Assembly (NCBI GenBank): GCA_009377795.1
Contig: WHTJ01000030.1
Location: forward strand, 1-45,264
Source: Propionibacteriales bacterium
Lineage (GTDB): Bacteria > Actinomycetota > Actinomycetes > Propionibacteriales > Nocardioidaceae
Direction: 5' to 3'
DNA: 45,264 nt
Made by a program: the position numbers and the translations under genes. Under the pieces are notes generated by a model. It was given only the letters and a program-made list of their open reading frames with translations. It was not told where the DNA came from and searched no databases. Positions 25,104 to 42,170 of this stretch are shown here, in pieces (the stretch's first letter is position 1; each line of letters begins with the position of its first letter).

Positions 25104-25994
25104 ATGCGATTCGTGAGGACCAAAACGCTTGCGACGGCCGGCGTGGTCGCGCTTTCGATGGCACTCGCCGCGTGCGGTGGGGACGAGAGCGGCGGAGATG
25201 GGGCGGAGGTCGAAGTCGAGGAGGGCGATTTCCCCGAAGGCAGCCAGATGGCCGAGTTTCAAGAGGCCGGCGAGATCACCATCGGAGTGAAGTTCGACCA
25301 ACCCGGCATCGGCTTCCAGCAGCCCGGTGAGGACACGCCCACCGGCTTCGACATCGAGATCGGCGAGTACGTCGCGGGAAAGCTCGGCATCGAGCCCGAG
25401 AACATCGGATGGCGGGAGACGGTATCGGACAACCGGGAGCCGTTCCTGGAGAACGGCACGGTCGACCTGGTCATCGCCTCGTACACCATCAACGAGGAAC
25501 GACGCGCCATCGTGGGCCAGGCCGGCCCGTACTACACCACCGGCCAGCAGATCCTCGTCCGTGAGGAGGACGCGGAAACCATCGACGGCCCGGACAAGCT
25601 GTCCGAGGTGAGCGTCTGCTCGGTCACCGGCTCGACGTCGCTGGAGAACGTCGTGCGTGACTACGGTGCGGAGCCTGCACCCTTCGACACGTACTCGGCC
25701 TGCGTGCGCCAGCTGCAGAACGAGACCGTGGACGCGGTGACGACCGACGGCGCCATCTTGCTGGGTTACGCCGCACAGGATCCGGACAACCTCGAGGTCG
25801 TGGGTGAGGAGTTCAGCGAGGAGCCGTACGGCATCGGCTACTACCCGAACGACGACACCGAGATGTGCGAGTTCCTCAACGAGACGATCCAGCAGTCGAT
25901 CGACGACGGCTACTGGGCTGAGGGCTTCGAGGCGACGCTCGGGCAGTCGGGCATCGAGACCCCTGACCCACCGGAGCAGGACCCCTGTCCGTGA
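25104..25994 (+). CDS. gluB: Glutamate-type ABC transporter, substrate-binding lipoprotein
   Basis: 296 aa. Signal peptide with lipobox LAAC (Cys24), followed by an acidic Gly/Glu/Asp linker. The SBP type-3 domain has ITIGVKFDQPGIGF, PTGFDIEIGEYVAGKLGI, the ligand loop RETVSDNREPFLENG with DLVIASYTINEERR, and VCSVTGSTS. This fits a glutamate/aspartate binder of the GluB family; the exact ligand needs a binding test. GAGAGGA precedes the start. Confidence 0.93.
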   Translation: MRFVRTKTLATAGVVALSMALAACGGDESGGDGAEVEVEEGDFPEGSQMAEFQEAGEITIGVKFDQPGIGFQQPGEDTPTGFDIEIGEYVAGKLGIEPENIGWRETVSDNREPFLENGTVDLVIASYTINEERRAIVGQAGPYYTTGQQILVREEDAETIDGPDKLSEVSVCSVTGSTSLENVVRDYGAEPAPFDTYSACVRQLQNETVDAVTTDGAILLGYAAQDPDNLEVVGEEFSEEPYGIGYYPNDDTEMCEFLNETIQQSIDDGYWAEGFEATLGQSGIETPDPPEQDPCP

Positions 25995-26002
25995 CATCAC
26001 AG

Positions 26003-26036
26003 GGTGGGCCCGGCTGAACGACCGGCCGGGCCCACC
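26003..26036 (+). terminator. Stem-loop between gluB and gluC
   Basis: Perfect 12-bp stem, GGTGGGCCCGGC (26003-26014) and GCCGGGCCCACC (26025-26036), with a 10-base loop and no T-tract. A strong hairpin right after the binding-protein gene is common in ABC import operons, where it shields the upstream message or partly ends transcription so the binding protein outnumbers the permeases. That role is inferred here. Confidence 0.8.
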
Positions 26037-26077
26037 TGATCTTCATCGAATCGCCGACACGGAAGGGCTGGACGACC

Positions 26078-26749
26078 TTGTCGACGTTGGCCGAGATGTG
26101 GCCATTTCTCCGGGCGGGGTTCACCAACACACTCGTGTTGCTGGCGCTGTCGCTGGTCCTGTCCACGATTCTCGGGACCGTGTTGGCCAGCATGCGGGTC
26201 TCCCCCGTGCTCCCGTTACGCGCATTCGGCACCAGCTACGTCAACATCTTCCGGAATACGCCGCTCGTCGTGATGTTCATCCTCATCGTCGAGGGTTTTC
26301 CTCCGGTCGACATCCGGCCGAACATCGAGGCGATCGGACTCAACACGTTCGAAACGCTCGCGGTGTTCGCCTTGACGATCTACACCGCAGCGTTCGTATG
26401 CGAGGCCCTGCGGTCTGGTGTCAACACGGTTGATCCCGGGCAGGCCGAGGCCGCTCGCGCGGTAGGCATGACGTTCACCCAGACGCTCAGTGTCATCGTG
26501 CTCCCGCAGGCCTTCCGCGCGGTGATTCCACCGCTAGCCAGCGTTTACATCGCGCTCACCAAGAACACGTCGGTCGCCGCCGCGTTCGGTGTCGTCGAGG
26601 CCACAGCACAGCTCAGTCGCATGAACGAGCAGACCGTGGCAGGCACCGGGGTCCTGTTCTTCGGCATCGCCGCCGGCTACGTCGTCATCGTCTGGGTGAT
26701 CTCCGGGATAGCCGCCTTCCTGGAGAGGCAGGTGGCAACGGCGCGATGA
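26078..26749 (+). CDS. gluC: Glutamate-type ABC transporter, permease
   Basis: 223 aa, five or so membrane helices, HisMQ-type permease. The EAA-like loop is VDPGQAEAARAVGMTFTQTL, and NTPLVVMFILIV is the usual early motif. Start is taken as TTG 26078 (GGAAGGG upstream); ATG at 26096 is a possible alternative giving a protein 6 residues shorter. It overlaps gluD by 4 bases (ATGA), so the two are translationally coupled. Confidence 0.9.
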   Translation: MSTLAEMWPFLRAGFTNTLVLLALSLVLSTILGTVLASMRVSPVLPLRAFGTSYVNIFRNTPLVVMFILIVEGFPPVDIRPNIEAIGLNTFETLAVFALTIYTAAFVCEALRSGVNTVDPGQAEAARAVGMTFTQTLSVIVLPQAFRAVIPPLASVYIALTKNTSVAAAFGVVEATAQLSRMNEQTVAGTGVLFFGIAAGYVVIVWVISGIAAFLERQVATAR

Positions 26750-27582
26750 GCACCTCTGTCCTCTTCGACGTCCCCGGTCCCCGAGCGCGCGCCCGGCACG
26801 CTGTCTACGCCATCGTCGTGGTCCTCGGCATCCTCGCGCTACTCGGGTACTTCGGATGGCGGCTCTGGGACGCCGACCAGATCACGCCGGAGAAGTGGGC
26901 GTTCCTGAACCAACCCAGCATCGTTAAGGATCTGCTCAGAGGCCTGCTGGGCACCGTCTCGATGGCGGTGACCGCGATCGTGCTCGCCATCGTGTTCGGC
27001 GCCGTGTTCGCCAGCGGAAGGCTCTCGGATCATCTGATCCTGAGGCTTCCCAGCATCGCGGTCATCGAGTTCTTCCGTGCGGTCCCGGTGCTGCTGATGA
27101 TGTTCACGTTGCTCTTCAGTTTCCAGAGCATTCTCGGGACCTACTGGTCGGTGGTAGTCGCCTTGGTGCTCTACAACGGATCGGTGCTCGCGGAGGTCTT
27201 CCGGGCGGGCATCCTCGCGGTTCCCAAGGGACAGAGCGAGGCCGCCTATGCCGTCGGTCTGCGCAAGGGGCAGGTTCTGCGATTGATCCAGGCACCACAG
27301 GCGGTCAGCACGATGCTGCCGGCGATCATCAGCCAGTGCGTCGTCGCGCTGAAGGACACCGCTCTCGGCTACGTGATTGGGGCATTCGAGATCGCCCGGA
27401 GGGGAAAGCTGATCTTCACTTCGCTCGAACACAACAACCCGATCGCGGTCGGGCTGACGCTCCTGGTGGTCTTCGTGATCCTCAACTACTCGATCTCGCT
27501 GCTCGCGCGGCGGCTGGAAGCGCAGATGCGACGCCGCGGCAAGAAGGTCGTTCACACCGAGGCCGAGGCGGCCGGCGCGTAG
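26746..27582 (+). CDS. gluD: Glutamate-type ABC transporter, permease
   Basis: 278 aa. Second HisMQ-type permease; N-terminal helix YAIVVVLGILALLGYFGW, motif EFFRAVPVLLMMFTLLF, EAA loop VPKGQSEAAYAVGLRKGQVL and a basic tail (ARRLEAQMRRRGKKV). It pairs with GluC as the heterodimeric channel. Its stop codon is followed within about 15 bases by a decayed piece of an MFS gene on the other strand. Confidence 0.93.
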   Translation: MSTSVLFDVPGPRARARHAVYAIVVVLGILALLGYFGWRLWDADQITPEKWAFLNQPSIVKDLLRGLLGTVSMAVTAIVLAIVFGAVFASGRLSDHLILRLPSIAVIEFFRAVPVLLMMFTLLFSFQSILGTYWSVVVALVLYNGSVLAEVFRAGILAVPKGQSEAAYAVGLRKGQVLRLIQAPQAVSTMLPAIISQCVVALKDTALGYVIGAFEIARRGKLIFTSLEHNNPIAVGLTLLVVFVILNYSISLLARRLEAQMRRRGKKVVHTEAEAAGA

Positions 27583-27596
27583 TTCCGGGTGCGGCT

Positions 27597-27690
27597 GTAC
27601 GCCTCTGATGCCGTCGCCCAGGTTGGCCAGCGCGGAGGCGGTCCAGAACTGCCAGAACGGTTTGCCTGGCCCCTGTCGCATGTGCGCCAA
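27597..27690 (-). pseudogene. 5' end of an MFS transporter gene, rest lost
   Basis: From ATG 27690 on the minus strand the product reads MAHMRQGPGKPFWQFWTASA then LANLGDGIRG, the typical start of an MFS_3-type transporter (compare FRRLWAASTVSNLGDGVR-type starts, from memory). After residue 31 the likeness stops, just before the gluD stop codon. Only 90 or so bases of the gene remain. The flanking palindrome copy 5 lies immediately before its start. Confidence 0.65.
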
Positions 27691-27692
27691 AC

Positions 27693-27740
27693 TTCGCGCC
27701 GAGATTGCACTTGTAGTCGACCAGAAGTGCTCGGCGCGAA
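27693..27740. repeat. Dispersed palindrome, copy 5 (bulged)
   Basis: Left arm TTCGCGCCGAGATTGCACTT (27693-27712) and right arm AAGTGCTCGGCGCGAA (27725-27740) pair except that the right arm lacks AATC. Loop 27713-27724. Lies in the 376-base gap between gluD and the DUF4442 gene. Confidence 0.9.
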
Positions 27741-27852
27741 AAACGGGTCAGCTGCCCATCTTCGCTGACAACGGGACTGGCGGAGACATCCGGCTGTGCC
27801 CTGCGCGCCGCATCCGGATGACGGGCTCGCTTCGTCGCGCGCTCGACTATCG

Positions 27853-27916
27853 GATAATGACGGTTCCGCGGAACCGTGCATGCCCGACCGGAGGATCGCA
27901 AGGTGCCGCCGGCCGG
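27853..27916 (+). promoter_or_regulatory. Orphan promoter/operator and start site without a gene
   Basis: In order: -10-like GATAAT (27853-27858); the perfect 18-bp palindrome ACGGTTCCGCGGAACCGT (27860-27877), which looks like an operator; a strong GGAGGA (27890-27895); and GTG at 27903 (reading PPAGAVRSRWRVRAPAAG). The frame then runs antisense into the DUF4442 gene, whose stop is at 27959, so only about 17 codons of the presumed gene remain. The gap 27583-27958 therefore holds the 5' ends of two lost divergent genes and palindrome copy 5. Confidence 0.45.
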
Positions 27917-27958
27917 CGCCGTCCGCTCCCGGTGGCGCGTACGGGCGCCAGCTGCGGG

Positions 27959-28420
27959 TCAGGCCGGTACCTCCGTGACCCAGAGGCGGATCGTGCCGCG
28001 CACCACCACGGTGCCGTCGGTGCGCTTGGCGGTCACCTTGACCGGTACGTCGGGTCCGGTCTCCCAGTCCGTCTCCCGAGTCTCCGCGATACAGATGATG
28101 TCCGAGGTGGACTTGGCGACGTACTCCACCTCCATCCCCTTGGGCAGCCAGCGCATCCCGGCCGGGACCGTGACCTCCGCCAGACCGCCCATCGCGGCTT
28201 CCAGCCCGTTGCAGACCGCGATCGCGTGCACCGTCCCGATGTGGTTGTGCACGGCCTTGCGGTTCGCAATCACCACCTCGGCGTAGTTCGGCCGCAGCGC
28301 GACGAACCGGGGCTTGACGGTCCGGAAGTACGGCGCCTTGCGGGCGAACGAGACGGAGAACAGTTCGCGCCCCTTGGGTAGTCGCGACAAGGTGCGATAG
28401 AGCTGCAGCACCGATGGCAT
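27959..28420 (-). CDS. DUF4442 hotdog-fold thioesterase-like protein
   Basis: 153 aa. Single hotdog domain: the central helix HNHIGTVHAIAVCNGLEAAMGG follows the strand PNYAEVVIANRKAVHN and precedes MRWLPKGMEVEYVAKSTSDI. Matches the DUF4442 branch of the PaaI/YiiD-like thioesterases; the acyl substrate is unknown. It lies 142 bases after recX on the same strand. No strong ribosome site is seen; the Met at 28420 gives the expected family length. Confidence 0.88.
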   Translation of the reverse strand: MPSVLQLYRTLSRLPKGRELFSVSFARKAPYFRTVKPRFVALRPNYAEVVIANRKAVHNHIGTVHAIAVCNGLEAAMGGLAEVTVPAGMRWLPKGMEVEYVAKSTSDIICIAETRETDWETGPDVPVKVTAKRTDGTVVVRGTIRLWVTEVPA

Positions 28421-28562
28421 AGGTGAACGCTACCCGTGAGTTCGGCGCGCGTTCTCTCGGGGCGAACAGACGGCCACGCGAGCGCCGTGGTGGCAGGTTC
28501 GCGGTCCGCGATCGCCGCCACGACTCCATGGTCCCCGCCCCGCTCCCCGCCCCGCTCCCCGG

Positions 28563-29144
28563 TCAGGTCTCCGCCTCATGGTCATCGAGCGCCATCTCCA
28601 GCTCATCGGACACGACCCGGAACGCCACGCCGGCCGGATATCCCCGCCGCGCCAGCATGCCGACCAGACGGCGCCGTGCGACGTGTGGCTCCAGCCCGGT
28701 CATGCCGCGAAGCTTGCGGCGTACGACGGCACGCGCCGCGTCCGCCTCGGCCTCGGAGTCGACCGAGTCGACGGCCTCGCGAACGATCTCATCGGCGACT
28801 CCCTTGCGGCGCAGCTCTCGTGCAAGCGCCTTGCGCGCGAGGCCCCGTCCGGCCTGACGTGACTCGACCCAGGCGCGTGCGAACGCGGCATCGTCGATCA
28901 GTCCGACCTCCTCGAACCGATCGAGCAACCGGGTCGCGATCTCGTCGGGCACCCGCTTGGAGGCGAGCGTCTCGGCCAGCTCCGCGCGGGTGCGCGGCCG
29001 CGCGGACAGCCGGTCGAGCAGGATCGCCCGGGCGACCGACTCCGGGTCGGCCTCCGGACCCTTGCCGGCGTCGTCCTCCGGCGGCAGGTCGTTCTGCGGT
29101 CGCCCGGCTGCGTGCGGTTTCGGCGATCGTGAACGGGCAGCCAT
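28563..29144 (-). CDS. recX: Regulatory protein RecX
   Basis: 193 aa. RecX binds RecA filaments and limits recombinase activity. Repeats of the RecX three-helix unit are visible: ARAILLDRLSARPRTRAELAE, then LLDRFEEVGLIDDAAFARAWV, then RLVGMLARRGYPAGVAFRVV. The polar N-terminal 35 residues are extra and low in complexity. It starts 12 bases after the recA stop, the usual recA-recX operon. Confidence 0.95.
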   Translation of the reverse strand: MAARSRSPKPHAAGRPQNDLPPEDDAGKGPEADPESVARAILLDRLSARPRTRAELAETLASKRVPDEIATRLLDRFEEVGLIDDAAFARAWVESRQAGRGLARKALARELRRKGVADEIVREAVDSVDSEAEADAARAVVRRKLRGMTGLEPHVARRRLVGMLARRGYPAGVAFRVVSDELEMALDDHEAET

Positions 29145-36432: not shown

Positions 36433-38541
36433 TCAGGCGGCCTCCTCCCGGAAGCCGTACCGCTCCCACACCCGGCGGAGCGGCCTCGGCGCCCACCAGT
36501 TCGCCCGGCCCAGCAGCCGCATGGTCGCCGGCACCAGCAGCGTGCGGATCACGGTCGCGTCGACGAAGATCGCCACGATCATGCCGACGCCGATCATCTT
36601 GATGAACGTGATCCCCGACGTCGAGAACCCGCCGATCACCACGATCAGCAGCAGCGCCAGGCTGGTGATGATCCGCCCGGTGCGCTGCACTCCCACGGCG
36701 ACGGACTCGGTGTTGTCGTGCGAGCGGTCCCAGTGCTCACGGATCCGCGACAGCAGGAACACCTCGTAGTCCATCGAGAGCCCGAACAGGATCGCGAGCA
36801 TCAGGATCGGCTGGGTGGCCTCGATATACCCCGTGCTGGTGAAGTCGAGCACGTCGGACAGGTTGCCGTCCTGGAAGACCAGCACCACGACCCCGAACGA
36901 GGCGGCGATCGACACCGCGGTCATGAGCACCGCCTTGATCGGGAGCACCACGGAGCCGAACGCGGCGAACAGCAGTACCAGCATCACGCCGATGACGATC
37001 AGCGCCATCCACGGCAGCCGGTCGGCGAGCGAGTCGAGCAGGTCGAGGGCCTCCGCGGTCTCCCCTCCGACGAGCGTGGTCACCCCGTCGGGCGCCGGTA
37101 CGTCGCGCACGTCCGCGACCAGCGATCGCGCCTCCTCCGACTGCGGATCGACCGCGTACTGCGCCTCGAGCAGCGTCGTACCGTCGGTTCGCACGACCTC
37201 CCGCACCTGGTCGACGCCGTCGACCGCGGCCAGCCGGTCGGCGTACTGCCGGACCTCGCCCGCGGAGCCGCCTCGAACCACCACGTCGGCGCCGTCGACA
37301 TCGCCGCCGGGGAACTCGGCGGCGAGCCGCTCGGCCACGACCCGGCTCTCGGCGTCCTCGGGCAGCACCCGCTCGTCCACGCTGCCGAACGTCACGCGCA
37401 GGAACGGCGAGCCGAGAGCCAGCAGCACGACCACGATGACCCCCGCGTACACGACCGGCCGCCGCATCACGCTGCGCGCGATCGCGGCCCACGCACCGTG
37501 GCCGTCGGCCTCCGCCTCGGCCCCCTTCGCCCGCCCGAAGTACGGCAGCCGCAGGGCGTTGATCCGGTGGCCGAGCGTGCCGAGCAGCGCCGGGAGGGTG
37601 CTGAGCCCGGCCAGCATCGCGATCAGCACGGCGGCCATCCCGCCGAATCCCATGGACTGCAGGAAATTCTGCGGGAAGATCAACAGCGACGCCATCGACG
37701 CGGCGATGATCAGGCCGGAGAACGCGACTGTCCGGCCGGCGGTCGCCACCGTACGTACGACGGCCTCCTCCACGCTCGCCGTGCGCTGTATCTCTTCCCG
37801 GAACCGGCTCACGATGAAGAGGGCGTAGTCGATCGCCATGCCCAGTCCGAGGATCGTGATGATGTTGATCGCGAACACCGACACGTCGGTGAAGAGCGAC
37901 AGCACGTGCAGCATGGTGAAGGCGCCGAGGATGGCGATGCTTCCCATGAGGAACGGCATCAGGCCGGACACCACGCTGCCGAAGATGATCAGGGACAGCA
38001 ACAGCACGATCGGCATCGAGATCATCTCCGCGCGCACGATGTCGTGCTCGACCTGGGTGTTGACCTCGTCGAAGATGGCCGCCCCACCGCCGATGCTGGT
38101 CTCCAGTCCGGGCGCCTCCAGCTCGTCGGCCACGGCCTCGAAGTCCCCCTCGCCGTCCTCCAGCGTGAGGACCAGCGTGGTGGCGTGCCGGTCGTCCGAG
38201 ACGAGGTTCGGCGCGGGCGAGTCCAGGTAGCTGACCACCCGGGTCACCTCGGACGGCAACCCCTCGACGACCTCCCGTACGCCGGCCTCGAAATCCGGAT
38301 CGTCCACGGTGAGCCGGTCGCTCTCGTACAACACGACCACGTCGGCGGCCTGCCGGCCGACGGTCTCGTCGATGCGTTCCACCGCGGCCGTCGACTCGCT
38401 GCTCGGGTCCTCGAACCCTCCGGCGGCGAGGTTGGCGAACACCCCGGTCCCCCACAGCCCGGCGAAGGCCAGGAACCCGACCGTGGCCACCAGCACCAGG
38501 TGGCGGAACCGGTACATCACGTGCCCCCACTTCTCGAACAT
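36433..38541 (-). CDS. MMPL-family (RND-type) transporter
   Basis: 702 aa. Two RND-like halves, each a membrane helix, a large outer loop and a five-helix bundle. First helix HLVLVATVGFLAFAGLWGTG. Bundles include MISMPIVLLLSLIIFGSVVS with GLMPFLMGSIAILGAF, and later LPWMALIVIGVMLVLLFAAF. The segment GLGMAIDYALFIVSRFREE and its second-half twin GLSMDYEVFLLSRIREHW carry the Asp of the proton path. Relatives export lipids or drugs. The start has GGAGGA 8 bases upstream. It is divergent from a TetR regulator, which probably represses it. Confidence 0.92.
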   Translation of the reverse strand: MFEKWGHVMYRFRHLVLVATVGFLAFAGLWGTGVFANLAAGGFEDPSSESTAAVERIDETVGRQAADVVVLYESDRLTVDDPDFEAGVREVVEGLPSEVTRVVSYLDSPAPNLVSDDRHATTLVLTLEDGEGDFEAVADELEAPGLETSIGGGAAIFDEVNTQVEHDIVRAEMISMPIVLLLSLIIFGSVVSGLMPFLMGSIAILGAFTMLHVLSLFTDVSVFAINIITILGLGMAIDYALFIVSRFREEIQRTASVEEAVVRTVATAGRTVAFSGLIIAASMASLLIFPQNFLQSMGFGGMAAVLIAMLAGLSTLPALLGTLGHRINALRLPYFGRAKGAEAEADGHGAWAAIARSVMRRPVVYAGVIVVVLLALGSPFLRVTFGSVDERVLPEDAESRVVAERLAAEFPGGDVDGADVVVRGGSAGEVRQYADRLAAVDGVDQVREVVRTDGTTLLEAQYAVDPQSEEARSLVADVRDVPAPDGVTTLVGGETAEALDLLDSLADRLPWMALIVIGVMLVLLFAAFGSVVLPIKAVLMTAVSIAASFGVVVLVFQDGNLSDVLDFTSTGYIEATQPILMLAILFGLSMDYEVFLLSRIREHWDRSHDNTESVAVGVQRTGRIITSLALLLIVVIGGFSTSGITFIKMIGVGMIVAIFVDATVIRTLLVPATMRLLGRANWWAPRPLRRVWERYGFREEAA

Positions 38542-38561
38542 CGCGAAATCCTCCGTGATCG

Positions 38562-38604
38562 GTGTTAAACTGAGTTAACAGTGTTTGCGTTAACGGCGTT
38601 AACT
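38562..38604. promoter_or_regulatory. GTTAAC repeat array between MMPL and TetR genes (TetR operator)
   Basis: Four copies: GTTAAA (38564-38569), and GTTAAC at 38574-38579, 38589-38594 and 38598-38603. GTTAAC is itself a palindrome. The first pair lies within TGTTAA ... TTAACA and the last pair is GTTAAC-GGC-GTTAAC. Very AT-rich for this genome. The likely operator of the neighbouring TetR protein, covering both promoters. Confidence 0.75.
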
Positions 38605-38630
38605 ATGACCCGGCTGGAGGCTGATGTCAA

Positions 38631-39380
38631 GTGCCAGAATCCGAGACCCAGCAGTCATGGCGGGTTCGCCAGCGCCAGGCCACGGTCGCGGAGATCCTCG
38701 GAGCCGCACGCCGCCTGCTCGTCGAACACGGGCAGGCCGGGATCTCGTTGCGGGCCATCGCCCGCGAGATGGGCATGACCGCGCCGGCGTTGTACCGCTA
38801 CTTCGGTTCTCACGAAGAGCTGGTCGCCGCACTCACCGTGGAGATCTACGACGAGCTGATCGCCACCGCGGAACGCGCTCGCGACGCCCAACCGGAGGAC
38901 GACCCGCTGGCCCGGCTGCTCGCGGTCTGCCGGGCGTTCCGGCGCTGGTCGATCGGGAACCGCGAGGAGTTCGGGCTGGTCTTCGCCAACCCGATACACC
39001 TCGACATCACCATCGAACGCCCGGAGGGAGAGGCTCACCAGGCTGCGCAGCGGTTCGGGATGCTCTTCGGTGGACTGTTCGTCGAGCTAATGCATCGCCG
39101 TGGTCGTTCGCCGTCGGCGGAGGTCGAGCTCGACCCCAGGATCACCGAGCAGTTCCAGCGGCGGCAGCCGATCCTGTACGACGTACTCTCCCCGCACGAC
39201 CTCTACACGTTCCTGCGCGCGTGGACGCTCCTGTACGGCACGGTCGCGCTGGAGGCCTTCGGGCACTGCCAGTGGGCCCTCGAGGACGCCGAGCCGATGT
39301 TCGAGGACGTCATGCGCGACTGCGCCACGTTGATGGGGCTGGGCGACGAGGCCGCGGCCGTGCTCGAACGGGACTCCTGA
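38631..39380 (+). CDS. TetR-family transcriptional regulator
   Basis: 249 aa. N-terminal helix-turn-helix (residues about 17-65): VAEILGAARRLLVEHGQAG, ISLRAIAREMGMTAPALYRY and FGSHEELVAALT. C-terminal ligand domain starts ARLLAVCRAFRRWSIGNREEF and ends LRAWTLLYGTVALEAFGHCQ (WHG-type). Start is GTG 38631 after GGAGG. Divergent from the MMPL gene across the GTTAAC array; a repressor of that exporter is the natural reading, with an unknown ligand. Confidence 0.92.
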   Translation: MPESETQQSWRVRQRQATVAEILGAARRLLVEHGQAGISLRAIAREMGMTAPALYRYFGSHEELVAALTVEIYDELIATAERARDAQPEDDPLARLLAVCRAFRRWSIGNREEFGLVFANPIHLDITIERPEGEAHQAAQRFGMLFGGLFVELMHRRGRSPSAEVELDPRITEQFQRRQPILYDVLSPHDLYTFLRAWTLLYGTVALEAFGHCQWALEDAEPMFEDVMRDCATLMGLGDEAAAVLERDS

Positions 39381-39459: not shown

Positions 39460-40263
39460 TCAGGTGAGCAGCAGCCTCGAGAGCCGGCGGGACGCGAGAT
39501 AGAGACCGGCCGAGCCCATCGCGACCAGATAGGCGACCGACACCACGGAACCCCAGGTCAGCGCTCCCGTGACCAGCTCGCGGCACAGCACCACCGCGCG
39601 GTAGAGCGGGGTGATCTCGACGATCCACTGCAGCGCCGCCGGATAGGCGTGCAACGGATAGAACGTCGCCGAGAACAGGAACATCGGCAGGATCGTCAGC
39701 TGGACGAACTCGAAGTCCTGCCAGCTGCGCATGAACGTCGTGAGCGCCATCCCGACACCGGCGAACGCATAGCCGATGAGCAGGGTCGCCGGGAGGGCGA
39801 GGACCGCCCACCAGGAGCCAGTGAGACCCATCGCCGTCATCACCGCGAGGAACGCGCCCGAATAGATGCCGCCGCGGATGAGGGCCCAGCCGATCTCGCC
39901 GGACGCGATGTCCCACGGTCGCAGCGGCGTCGCGAGCATCGCGTCGTACAGCTTGATGTACTTCAGCCGGAAGAAGATGTTGAACGTCGAGTCGAAGATC
40001 GCGCCGTTCATCGCCGAGGCGGCCAGCAGCGCGGGCGCCACGAACGCGGTGTACTCGACCACCTGCCCGTTAGGCATCACGAACTCGTCCACCAGCGCCG
40101 CCACCCCGATGCCGATGGAGAACAGGTAGAACACCGGCTCCAGGAACCCGGTCGCGAAGACGATCCAGTTGCGCCGGTACACCAGGTAGTTGCGCATGAT
40201 CAGCTTGCCGCCGCCGAAACCGGCGGGCAGTCCGGGCAGCACCCGGGTGGCCAGCGTCGTCAT
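39460..40263 (-). CDS. ABC-2 type transporter permease (NodJ/DrrB-like), second
   Basis: 267 aa, six membrane helices of the ABC-2 family (for example FLEPVFYLFSIGIGVAALVD, GGIYSGAFLAVMTAMGL, LPATLLIGYAFAGVGMALTT). Motif PRPWDIxxGEIGW and the late ATFYPLHAYPAALQWIVEITPLY are typical. It is the last gene of an ATPase-permease-permease operon; 16 bases separate it from the upstream permease. Confidence 0.9.
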   Translation of the reverse strand: MTTLATRVLPGLPAGFGGGKLIMRNYLVYRRNWIVFATGFLEPVFYLFSIGIGVAALVDEFVMPNGQVVEYTAFVAPALLAASAMNGAIFDSTFNIFFRLKYIKLYDAMLATPLRPWDIASGEIGWALIRGGIYSGAFLAVMTAMGLTGSWWAVLALPATLLIGYAFAGVGMALTTFMRSWQDFEFVQLTILPMFLFSATFYPLHAYPAALQWIVEITPLYRAVVLCRELVTGALTWGSVVSVAYLVAMGSAGLYLASRRLSRLLLT

Positions 40264-40279
40264 CTCCCGCGCCCTCCCC

Positions 40280-41119
40280 TCACTGCACCAGCCGCCGGCT
40301 GAACGTCTTGATCGCCAGCCACCAGCCGGTCATCAGCCACAGCAGGAGGTAACCGGTGTGCACCGCCGCCATCCCCGCCTCGAGGGTCCCGGTGGTGAGC
40401 ATGCGGGTCAGCTCGACGCCGTGCCACAGCGGCGTGACGTACGCCAGCCACTCGAACACCGCCGGCAGCTGGCTCACCGGGAAGAACGCGCCGGAGAACA
40501 GGAACATCGGCATCACACCCAGCCGGAACACGATCGCGAATCCGGCGTCGTTCTCCAGCCGACCCGAGAGCGCGACGACCGGAGTGGCGTGCGCCAGGCC
40601 GATGAGTACGGCGACCAGCAGGCCGAGCAACCCCGCCCACACCGACGGCACCAGCCCGAACACCGCGGTGACGACGATGAACACCCCCGCGATGGTCGTC
40701 ATCCGGAACGCGATGTAGCCGAAGTTGGCGAGCAGCAGCGCCGGTACGACGACCGGGGTGTTCAGCATGGCCACGAAGACCTTGTTCCACTTGATGCCGG
40801 ACATCACCGGGTACGTCGACTCGAAGACGGCGTTCTGCATCACCGTCGCGGCGAGCAGCCCGGGTGCGATGTACTCCAGGTAGGTCAGGCCGCCCAGGCG
40901 TTCGATCGCGTCCGGGTCGTCGATGAAGCCACCCAGACCCACACCCATCGCCGTGAGATAGAGCAGCGGCATCACGAAGCTCGAGACCGCGCTGCCCTTC
41001 CACGTACGCCGGTAGACCGTGAGCCAGTAGTCGAACTGACGCAAGGCCAGCCCGAGCGTTCCGGTCCGCCCGGCGGGCGCAGGAGCCGACGCGGCGGTCG
41101 GCGGGCTCGCGGCGGTCAT
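40280..41119 (-). CDS. ABC-2 type transporter permease (NodJ/DrrB-like), first
   Basis: 279 aa. Pro/Ala-rich cytoplasmic N-terminus, then an ABC-2 permease core: SSFVMPLLYLTAMGVGLGGF, LEYIAPGLLAATVMQNAVFE, MFLFSGAFFPVSQLPAVFEW, and LLWLMTGWWLAIKTFSRRL at the end. Sequence resembles the second permease, so the channel is a heterodimer from an old duplication. Its start overlaps the ATPase stop by one base (TGATG). Confidence 0.9.
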   Translation of the reverse strand: MTAASPPTAASAPAPAGRTGTLGLALRQFDYWLTVYRRTWKGSAVSSFVMPLLYLTAMGVGLGGFIDDPDAIERLGGLTYLEYIAPGLLAATVMQNAVFESTYPVMSGIKWNKVFVAMLNTPVVVPALLLANFGYIAFRMTTIAGVFIVVTAVFGLVPSVWAGLLGLLVAVLIGLAHATPVVALSGRLENDAGFAIVFRLGVMPMFLFSGAFFPVSQLPAVFEWLAYVTPLWHGVELTRMLTTGTLEAGMAAVHTGYLLLWLMTGWWLAIKTFSRRLVQ

Positions 41120-42057
41120 CAGTCCACCAGCGAACGGCCGGTGAGGCGGAGGAAGACGTCCTCGAGGGTCGACCGGCGTACCAGGACCGAGTCCGGCCGC
41201 AGACCGCGCGCGGCGACCTCGGACGTCGCGCGCTCGCCGTCGTCGGTGTAGAGCAGCAGGCGGTCGGGCAGGACCTCGATCCGCTCGGCGAGGTCCGCGA
41301 CCTTACCCCCGAGCTGTTCGTGATGCCCCACGCCGAACCGCAACTCGGTGACCTCGCGGGTGGAGTATTGGGCGATGAGGGCGGTCGGCGACCCTTCGGC
41401 GACGATCCGGCCGTCGTTCATCACCACCAGCCGGTCGCAGAGCTGCTCGGCCTCGTCCATGTAATGCGTGGTGAGCACGAGGGTCACGCCCTGCTGCCTG
41501 AGCCGGAACAGCTTGTCCCACAGCAGGTGCCGCGCCTGCGGGTCCAGCCCGGTCGTCGGCTCGTCGAGGAGCAGCAGGTCGGGCTGGTTGATCAGCGACC
41601 GGGCGATCGTGAGCCGGCGCTTCATGCCGCCGGACAGGCTCTCGACCTTGGCGTTCGCCTTGTCGGTGAGCTGCACGAAGTCGAGCAGCTCGTCGGCCCG
41701 GGAGCGGCACTCCGCACGGCTGAGCCCGAAGTACCGGCCGTAGACGGTGAGGTTCTCGCGTACCGTCAACTCGACGTCCAGCTGGTCCTCCTGCGGGCAG
41801 ACCCCAATCCGGGCCCGGATCGCGGATCCGTCGGCGAGCGGGTCGAGGCCGAGCACGGTCAGCTCGCCGGACGAGGTCGGGGATACGCAGGCGATCATCC
41901 GCATCGCCGAGGACTTGCCGGCACCGTTGGGACCGAGGAAACCGAACGCCTCACCGGACGGAACGTCGAGATCGATGCCCCGAACCGCCTCGAAGTCGCC
42001 GTACCGCTTCACCAATCCTCTGGCCCGGATCAGCGCCCCACGATCACCAAAAGTCAC
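41119..42057 (-). CDS. ABC-2 exporter ATPase (NodI/DrrA-like)
   Basis: 312 aa. Walker A GPNGAGKSS, Q-loop CPQEDQLD, signature LSGGMKRRL, Walker B LLLLDEPTTGLD, H-loop LTTHYMDEAEQ. A C-terminal domain of about 90 residues (LRFGVGHHEQLGGKV ... RRSTLEDVFLRLTGR) is typical of DrrA/NodI exporters. Start GTG 42057 is chosen as the family-like beginning (TFGDRGALIRARGLVKRYG); its ribosome site is weak. Substrate of the exporter is not readable. Confidence 0.92.
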   Translation of the reverse strand: MTFGDRGALIRARGLVKRYGDFEAVRGIDLDVPSGEAFGFLGPNGAGKSSAMRMIACVSPTSSGELTVLGLDPLADGSAIRARIGVCPQEDQLDVELTVRENLTVYGRYFGLSRAECRSRADELLDFVQLTDKANAKVESLSGGMKRRLTIARSLINQPDLLLLDEPTTGLDPQARHLLWDKLFRLRQQGVTLVLTTHYMDEAEQLCDRLVVMNDGRIVAEGSPTALIAQYSTREVTELRFGVGHHEQLGGKVADLAERIEVLPDRLLLYTDDGERATSEVAARGLRPDSVLVRRSTLEDVFLRLTGRSLVD

Positions 42058-42102
42058 GGTGAGAGACTCTATCCCCGGCCCAACTCGTTTACGACCGGGA
42101 AC

Positions 42103-42170
42103 GAACCGGCTGACCACCACGGCGGCCGGGTCCCTCCACAAACCCGGTTCGCGCGATGGTCAGCCGGTTC
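42103..42170. repeat. 14-bp perfect inverted repeat with nested hairpin in a 365-bp gap
   Basis: GAACCGGCTGACCA (42103-42116) and TGGTCAGCCGGTTC (42157-42170) are exact reverse complements. Inside them CCGGGT (42126-42131) and ACCCGG (42142-42147) form a second stem. The gap 42058-42422 between the exporter ATPase and the sigma factor holds this, a small CTCCC/GGGAG hairpin near 42340, and no gene I can support. Role unknown; operator pair or mRNA structure are options. Confidence 0.7.

Follow-up and report, generated by a model that had tools for sequence, protein, structure and literature searches.

The window, by which we mean the whole 45,264-nucleotide stretch of DNA that was analysed, contains an 89-bp gap at 38542-38630 that separates a minus-strand MMPL-family transporter gene from a divergent plus-strand gene for a TetR-family regulator (Table 1). 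The regulator matches the TetR_N helix-turn-helix family PF00440 with 52.3 bits (cut-off 24), and its C-terminal ligand-binding domain matches PF13305 (TetR_C_33) with 49.5 bits (cut-off 26.8). None of the 17 NCBIfam families that it matched at E values up to 0.001 attains its curated cut-off; the best of them, the SACE_7040 family, scores 42.8 bits where 250 are needed. The structural model of the protein has a pLDDT of 92.9 and finds its best fold match in Rv1816 (TM 0.71-0.75 by query length). When taken with the sequence matches, the fold points to Rv1816 and SCO4313 as the nearest solved relatives; a search of open-licence PMC papers returned no paper on SCO4313. The transporter belongs to the MMPL family (PF03176), but its 464 bits against the MmpL3 exporter model lie well under the cut-off of 1400. 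When a TetR-family regulator and a divergent neighbour are encoded less than 200 bp apart, the regulator is reported usually to repress that neighbour (PMC3511530), and here the MMPL gene lies 89 bp from the TetR gene. On the other side of tetR, at 39460-42141, the window holds an ABC-2 transporter set (an ATPase and two permeases) convergent to tetR, whose best NCBIfam matches, NodI/NodJ and DrrA/DrrB, are all under cut-off. These genes point the opposite way to tetR, and we do not count them as targets.

Table 1. Genes, predicted operators and predicted promoter elements at the tetR/MMPL locus, in window coordinates.
Feature	Position	Strand	Remarks
MMPL-family transporter gene, presumed target	36433..38541	-	702 aa; PF03176 in two stretches; divergent beside TetR in 99 of 110 loci (window included)
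Operator O3 (predicted), GTGATC-ggt-GTTAAA, GTGATCggtGTTAAA	38555..38569		weak third pair, 19 bp from O1
Operator O1 (predicted), GTTAAC-agt-GTTTGC, GTTAACagtGTTTGC	38574..38588		one half degenerate (GTTTGC)
Operator O2 (predicted), GTTAAC-ggc-GTTAAC, GTTAACggcGTTAAC	38589..38603		perfect 15-bp dyad; register common to relatives
MMPL -10 (predicted), CATAGT	38602..38607	-	promoter scan; overlapped by O2
MMPL -35 (predicted), TTGACA	38625..38630	-	promoter scan
TetR-family regulator gene, presumed repressor	38631..39380	+	249 aa; GTG start; PF00440, PF13305

Read directly from the sequence, the gap contains GTTAAA at 38564-38569 and exact copies of GTTAAC at 38574-38579, 38589-38594 and 38598-38603. 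The first-pass annotation had described four GTTAAC-type sites here, each palindromic, in an AT-rich island. Their positions and start-to-start distances of 10, 15 and 9 bp stand, but only three of the four sites are palindromic hexamers, since GTTAAA itself is not. The description as an AT-rich island is valid in relative terms because the gap has 49% G+C, whereas 90-bp segments around it have 58 to 78%. The clustering of GTTAAC in the gap exceeds chance. When the gap was shuffled 200,000 times with its dinucleotides preserved, three copies appeared once and a pair at 9 bp twice, and 300 shuffles of the whole window produced neither three copies within 30 bp nor a pair at 9 bp. Across the 4.58-Mb draft genome, GTTAAC occurs at 58 places, 3 of which are inside these 30 bp.

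Related loci were collected for comparison. Of 149 genomes searched in the window's own family, that of the window among them, 148 gave a match, and loci were taken from the best 30 matches; among named genomes, we took the best 80 of 124 matches. From the resulting 114 loci we dropped L001, which is the window again, and L002-L004, which carry no TetR, leaving 110, with the window as L005. The gap sequences of L093, L103, L105 and L108 are the same as those of L015, L018, L024 and L032, and removal of near-duplicates left 88 non-redundant gaps, window included. As the loci are best matches, the sample leans towards close relatives, and as many of them are from Actinomadura, locus counts are not independent events. 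A divergent MMPL gene stands beside TetR in 99 of the 110; the remaining eleven are L020, where the sequence ends 248 bp upstream; L050, with no MMPL match and one half-site; L039, L066 and L099, which have another neighbour; and six Streptomyces TetRs (L100, L109-L112 and L114) with no MMPL match in the fetched flanks. The TetR/MMPL pair, with nearly the same layout of predicted sites, recurs in many other actinobacteria of several genera.

Two motifs that were not tuned on the gaps are strongly enriched in the 88 sequences. GTTAAC has 88 occurrences where shuffles give 4.5, and for GTNNAC the figures are 291 and 66.9. Pairs of GTNNAC stand at a spacing of 9 bp in 65 cases and of 16 bp in 67, with 0.28 from shuffles for either spacing. 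We also picked five half-site forms, GT(TA/GA/TC/TT/AA)AC, after viewing the gaps. The GTTAAC and GTNNAC counts are independent of this choice, whereas tests with the five forms, and with the third- and fourth-operator patterns described below, lean towards the result because these patterns were picked after viewing the data. With this proviso, the five forms occur 268 times against 23.6 in shuffles, and their pairs concentrate at spacings of 9 (62 observed, 0.02 expected), 16 (64, 0.00), 25 (39, 0.02), 18 (26, 0.04) and 7 bp (18, 0.06). Pairs at 9 bp number 62 in 11.7 kb of gaps versus 0 in 468 kb of flanks from the same loci. Such a pair is present in 47 of the 88 gaps, and a pair at 9 or 16 bp in 59. 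None of the 99 MMPL loci is without a half-site in the 250 bp upstream of tetR, but 31 of the 99 have no five-form pair at 9 or 16 bp. The comparison of the 110 TetR loci, the window being one, gives as the unit a 15-bp TetR-type operator, GTnnAC-N3-GTnnAC, and the spacings of 9, 16 and 25 bp are those of two such predicted operators placed 16 bp apart.

Scored with a model of four half-sites (maximum 20), 55 of the 88 gaps reach at least 18 and 69 at least 16, leaving 33 below 18 and 19 below 16; among 4400 shuffled gaps, none attains 17 and 6 attain 16. The two operators are 16 bp apart in 51 of the 55 best gaps, 15 bp apart in 2 (the window and L007) and 17 bp apart in 2. The consensus of the 51, drawn by eye from the counts, is GTKAAC-RSY-GTWAAC-T-GYGAAC-RGY-GTTAAC. 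A close relative, L009, has half-sites spaced 9-9-9. The gap of the window scores 18.5, a value attained by 0 of 20,000 shuffles of that gap.

Within the window, O2 equals its own reverse complement at 14 of 15 positions, the central base being the exception, and O1 does so at 10 of 15. The operator centres lie at 38562 (O3), 38581 (O1) and 38596 (O2), so that O1 and O2 are 15 bp apart here, compared with 16 bp in most relatives. Two half-sites, GTGATC at 38555 and GTTTGC at 38583, had been overlooked in the earlier reading. Because the window carries O3, the leftmost site of that reading, GTTAAA at 38564, becomes the right half of this putative third operator. The suggestion that the sites could load two dimers or more is favoured by the comparative evidence, with the amendment that the predicted unit is a 15-bp pair of half-sites, of which three are present, and not a lone GTTAAC. 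More than one dyad stands in a recurrent register in the relatives (spacings 9, 16 and 25, and the element at -19); in the window, only O2 is perfect. We also considered GTTAAActgaGTTAAC as a single operator and dropped it, the relatives showing 3 pairs at a spacing of 10 bp versus 62 at 9 bp and the dyad matching at 10 of 16 positions.

Additional elements flank the core in the relatives. In the 69 gaps that score at least 16, extra half-sites on the left fall 10 or 19 bp away in 16 of 19 cases, and those on the right fall 9, 18 or 19 bp away in 37 of 40. On the left, a pattern set after viewing the alignment columns, GTKA-N7-TMAC, is matched at one offset at 7 or 8 of its 8 positions in 43 of the 69 gaps (window included); the three next-best offsets, completing the four best, give 0, 1 and 2 of 69. 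The O3 of the window fits this pattern at 7 of 8 positions, and both of its halves deviate from the consensus half-site forms. In the nearest relatives, L006-L008, O3 is missing, with 2, 3 and 1 of the 8 positions matched. A fourth element on the right side is present in 36 of the 69 gaps, namely in 33 of 41 outside the window's family loci and in 3 of 28 among them, and it has no match in the window. The dyad centres are about 19, 16 and 18 bp apart in the relatives and 19 and 15 bp apart in the window. In L006, L007 and L008 the -35 and -10 of the pump promoter have a fourth operator between them, GCTAAC-N3-GTTAAC, and at this place the window appears to have the ribosome-binding site of tetR. 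In L011 and L017 only a few bases, among them TATGCT, separate the array from an ATG close to the start of tetR, which may mean that the tetR transcript is leaderless there.

The promoter scan returned one promoter-like site in the gap, TTGACA-17-CATAGT on the minus strand, which agrees with the consensus at 10 of 12 positions (50 shuffles gave a mean of 0.0), and the overlap of O2 with the MMPL promoter is predicted from this consensus match. The complement of the -35 core, GTCAA, is found on the right-hand side of the operators and no more than 40 bp away in 67 of 69 gaps, compared with 5.1 in shuffles; its distance is 22-23 bp in 47 gaps and 6-9 bp in 17. The hexamers found 17 nt away in the relatives are often poor as -10 boxes, the commonest being CGAAGT (11 of 47), so the assignment of the MMPL promoter is firm only for the window. 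No tetR promoter was found in the gap. There is a weak -10 candidate for tetR, TAAACT at 38566-38571; its pattern, TAnnCT, turns up on the left side of the operators in 12 of 69 gaps, where 3.2 would be expected and no shuffle gave more than 8. Reading GTTAAA at 38564 as merely a tetR -10 box was rejected since TAnnCT is weaker than the third-operator fit, though both may hold.

The exceptional loci suggest which gene the sites accompany. In L039, L066 and L099 (two Streptomyces and one Streptosporangium), the divergent neighbour is a 115-aa protein instead of an MMPL transporter, and 2, 4 and 3 half-sites, respectively, are found; the L039 copy matches Pfam Darcynin, a domain of unknown function. 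As these three loci keep half-sites with another neighbour, the sites seem to go with TetR, and because the half-sites are still present, the gene of the 115-aa protein may be under the same control as the pump. The six Streptomyces TetRs without an MMPL match have 0 or 1 half-site each. Residues G48, T50, P52, Y55, R56 and Y57 of TetR are invariant in 51 aligned TetRs, and the DNA-reading helix is nearly invariant. It is equally conserved in those six TetRs, where the array is absent, and so does not discriminate the array loci.

The pair GTTAAC-N3-GTTAAC occurs without mismatch at one place in the draft genome, this gap. With up to 2 mismatches it occurs at 17 places, 3 of them within this array, versus 13 for a reversed-pattern control, and GTKAACNNNGTTMAC with up to 1 mismatch occurs at 7 places versus 8 for its reversed control. 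The quadruple-site pattern matches only this gap. Its strict 9-7-9 form, with up to 2 mismatches allowed, has three other places versus 0 in the control, each with two mismatches and all three devoid of the five half-site forms. Hence the hope that the motif would lead to a regulon was not borne out in this genome, the quadruple being unique and the pair showing little or no excess over its control. Because the quadruple site matches nowhere else in the draft genome, the regulon looks local; a wide regulon is not supported by the pair or quadruple searches of this draft (182 contigs). The same genome holds a paralogous pair on contig C39 at 25678-28598 (L120, 1179-4099), in which the TetR is 35% identical and the divergent MMPL 32% identical to those of the window. 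GTAAAC and GTTAAC stand just upstream of that TetR, 11 bp apart, unlike the spacing in the window. The C39 TetR/MMPL pair may be a separate switch.

We consider it likely, with a probability of about 0.8, that the 15-bp operators lined up in the gap serve the adjacent TetR, which would load 2-3 dimers there and repress the pump gene and probably its own. The poor dyad of O1 and the equal conservation of the helix in TetRs that have no array lower this estimate slightly. The binding, the number of dimers, their cooperativity, the autoregulation and the ligand are what we infer beyond the sites themselves, their register and their recurrence. In each operator the two GTnnAC half-sites, with a centre-to-centre distance of 9 bp, would be read by one TetR dimer. 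O1 and O2 would take one dimer each, and O3 perhaps another that binds less well. Dimers on O1-O3 would cover the MMPL unit from the predicted -10 as far as the margin of its ribosome-binding site, and for that reason would block RNA polymerase. With the array directly upstream of tetR, repression of its own gene is probable as well. A ligand, possibly a lipid or another hydrophobic compound, would free TetR from the DNA and turn the pump on. A bolder and more tentative extension, which we think somewhat less probable than its negation, is that one TetR aligns 3-4 dimers on a fixed-register array from the pump promoter to the ribosome-binding site and so produces a steep, all-or-none response that lineages tune by retaining or shedding the outer operators.

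The alternative closest to this reading, and compatible with its core, is that only O2 works here, O1 and O3 having half-decayed in this lineage and a single dimer being sufficient. O2 is indeed the sole perfect 15-bp dyad, O1 has a degenerate half, the halves of O3 are both off the consensus forms, and the 15-bp operator spacing is shared by just 2 of the 55 best gaps, window included. However, that spacing is found in L007 too, the quadruple register recurs at 16 bp in 51 of those 55 gaps, and the four-half-site score of the window was unreached in 20,000 shuffles, which makes a single working operator rather unlikely in our judgement. We think it improbable that the array is read by another regulator, or is common to two. 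The C39 TetR would be one candidate, being a paralogue that is also divergent from an MMPL gene and has GTAAAC and GTTAAC just upstream, but its half-sites are 11 bp apart, and the motif of the window recurs beside relatives of the window's own TetR, including the three loci with a different neighbour gene. We give almost no credence to a gap without any regulator, in which AT-rich promoter boxes and chance palindromes would account for the repeats: the AT-richness of the gap relative to the genome and the overlap of one repeat with the predicted -10 would agree with this, but shuffles that keep the dinucleotides fail to reproduce the repeats, and the exact spacings recur in relatives.

An operator array for the adjacent TetR is the reading that we prefer; it is persuasive on the sequence evidence, though as a pump control it would be a rather common type of on/off switch. 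For an uncharacterised TetR/MMPL pair of several actinobacterial genera, the analysis offers an operator code, tandem GTnnAC-N3-GTnnAC, and a code this clear should make control of the pump predictable from the sequence of those genomes. Natural variants in which the outer operators are retained or missing provide, along with the recurrent spacing, a set for studying how repressor number and helical phase relate to the response of the pump. Among the matches listed in open-licence PMC papers, we recognised no description of this operator code, of the TetR subfamily or of a fixed-register multi-dimer switch. The kind of system is already known, since CalR3/calT, FarR/FarE, the dimer-of-dimers operators and EthR precede it.

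EthR acts on a monooxygenase gene. Like the regulator of our proposal, it is an actinobacterial TetR that places several dimers within a short gap between divergent genes: it reportedly "octamerizes cooperatively on its operator", in the words of a paper title, and the gap is described as 75 bp long (PMC3511530). BkaR/Rv2506, which is reported to control branched-chain keto-acid genes, likewise has a GTTA...TAAC palindrome twice between divergent genes; its 16-bp core, GTTA(N)T(N4)A(N)TAAC, has an inner spacing unlike that of the window operators (PMC3920632). Rv1816 of Mycobacterium tuberculosis (PDB 5d1r), the nearest solved structure by sequence and fold, is 26-28% identical to the window TetR in the structural alignment; it reportedly binds to mmpL regions, and palmitic acid is reported to release it (PMC6463170, PMC10171966). 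In Staphylococcus aureus, FarR is a TetR-family regulator divergent from FarE, an RND pump that is equated with MmpL and linked to linoleic acid resistance (PMC10019231), although it belongs to another phylum. In CalR3/calT of Streptomyces chartreusis, as excerpts of PMC5712553 describe it, TetR represses itself and a pump, with calcimycin and cezomycin as ligands. That regulator, too, is divergent from a gene predicted to encode two MMPL domains, and it has two sites in the common promoter region, one of them over the calT start and -10. The difference is that CalR3 uses one 14-bp palindrome and a dependent second site, compared with the array of half-site forms in the window. Operators that take a dimer of dimers are described for QacR (28 bp), CgmR (32 bp), Ms6564 (31 bp) and CprB (22 bp) (PMC4150764). 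The proposed array would share with them the binding of two dimers to one operator, its O1-O2 core covering 30 bp in the window and 31 bp in most relatives, but it would give each dimer a dyad of its own, 15-16 bp from the next, and add a third and, in many relatives, a fourth.
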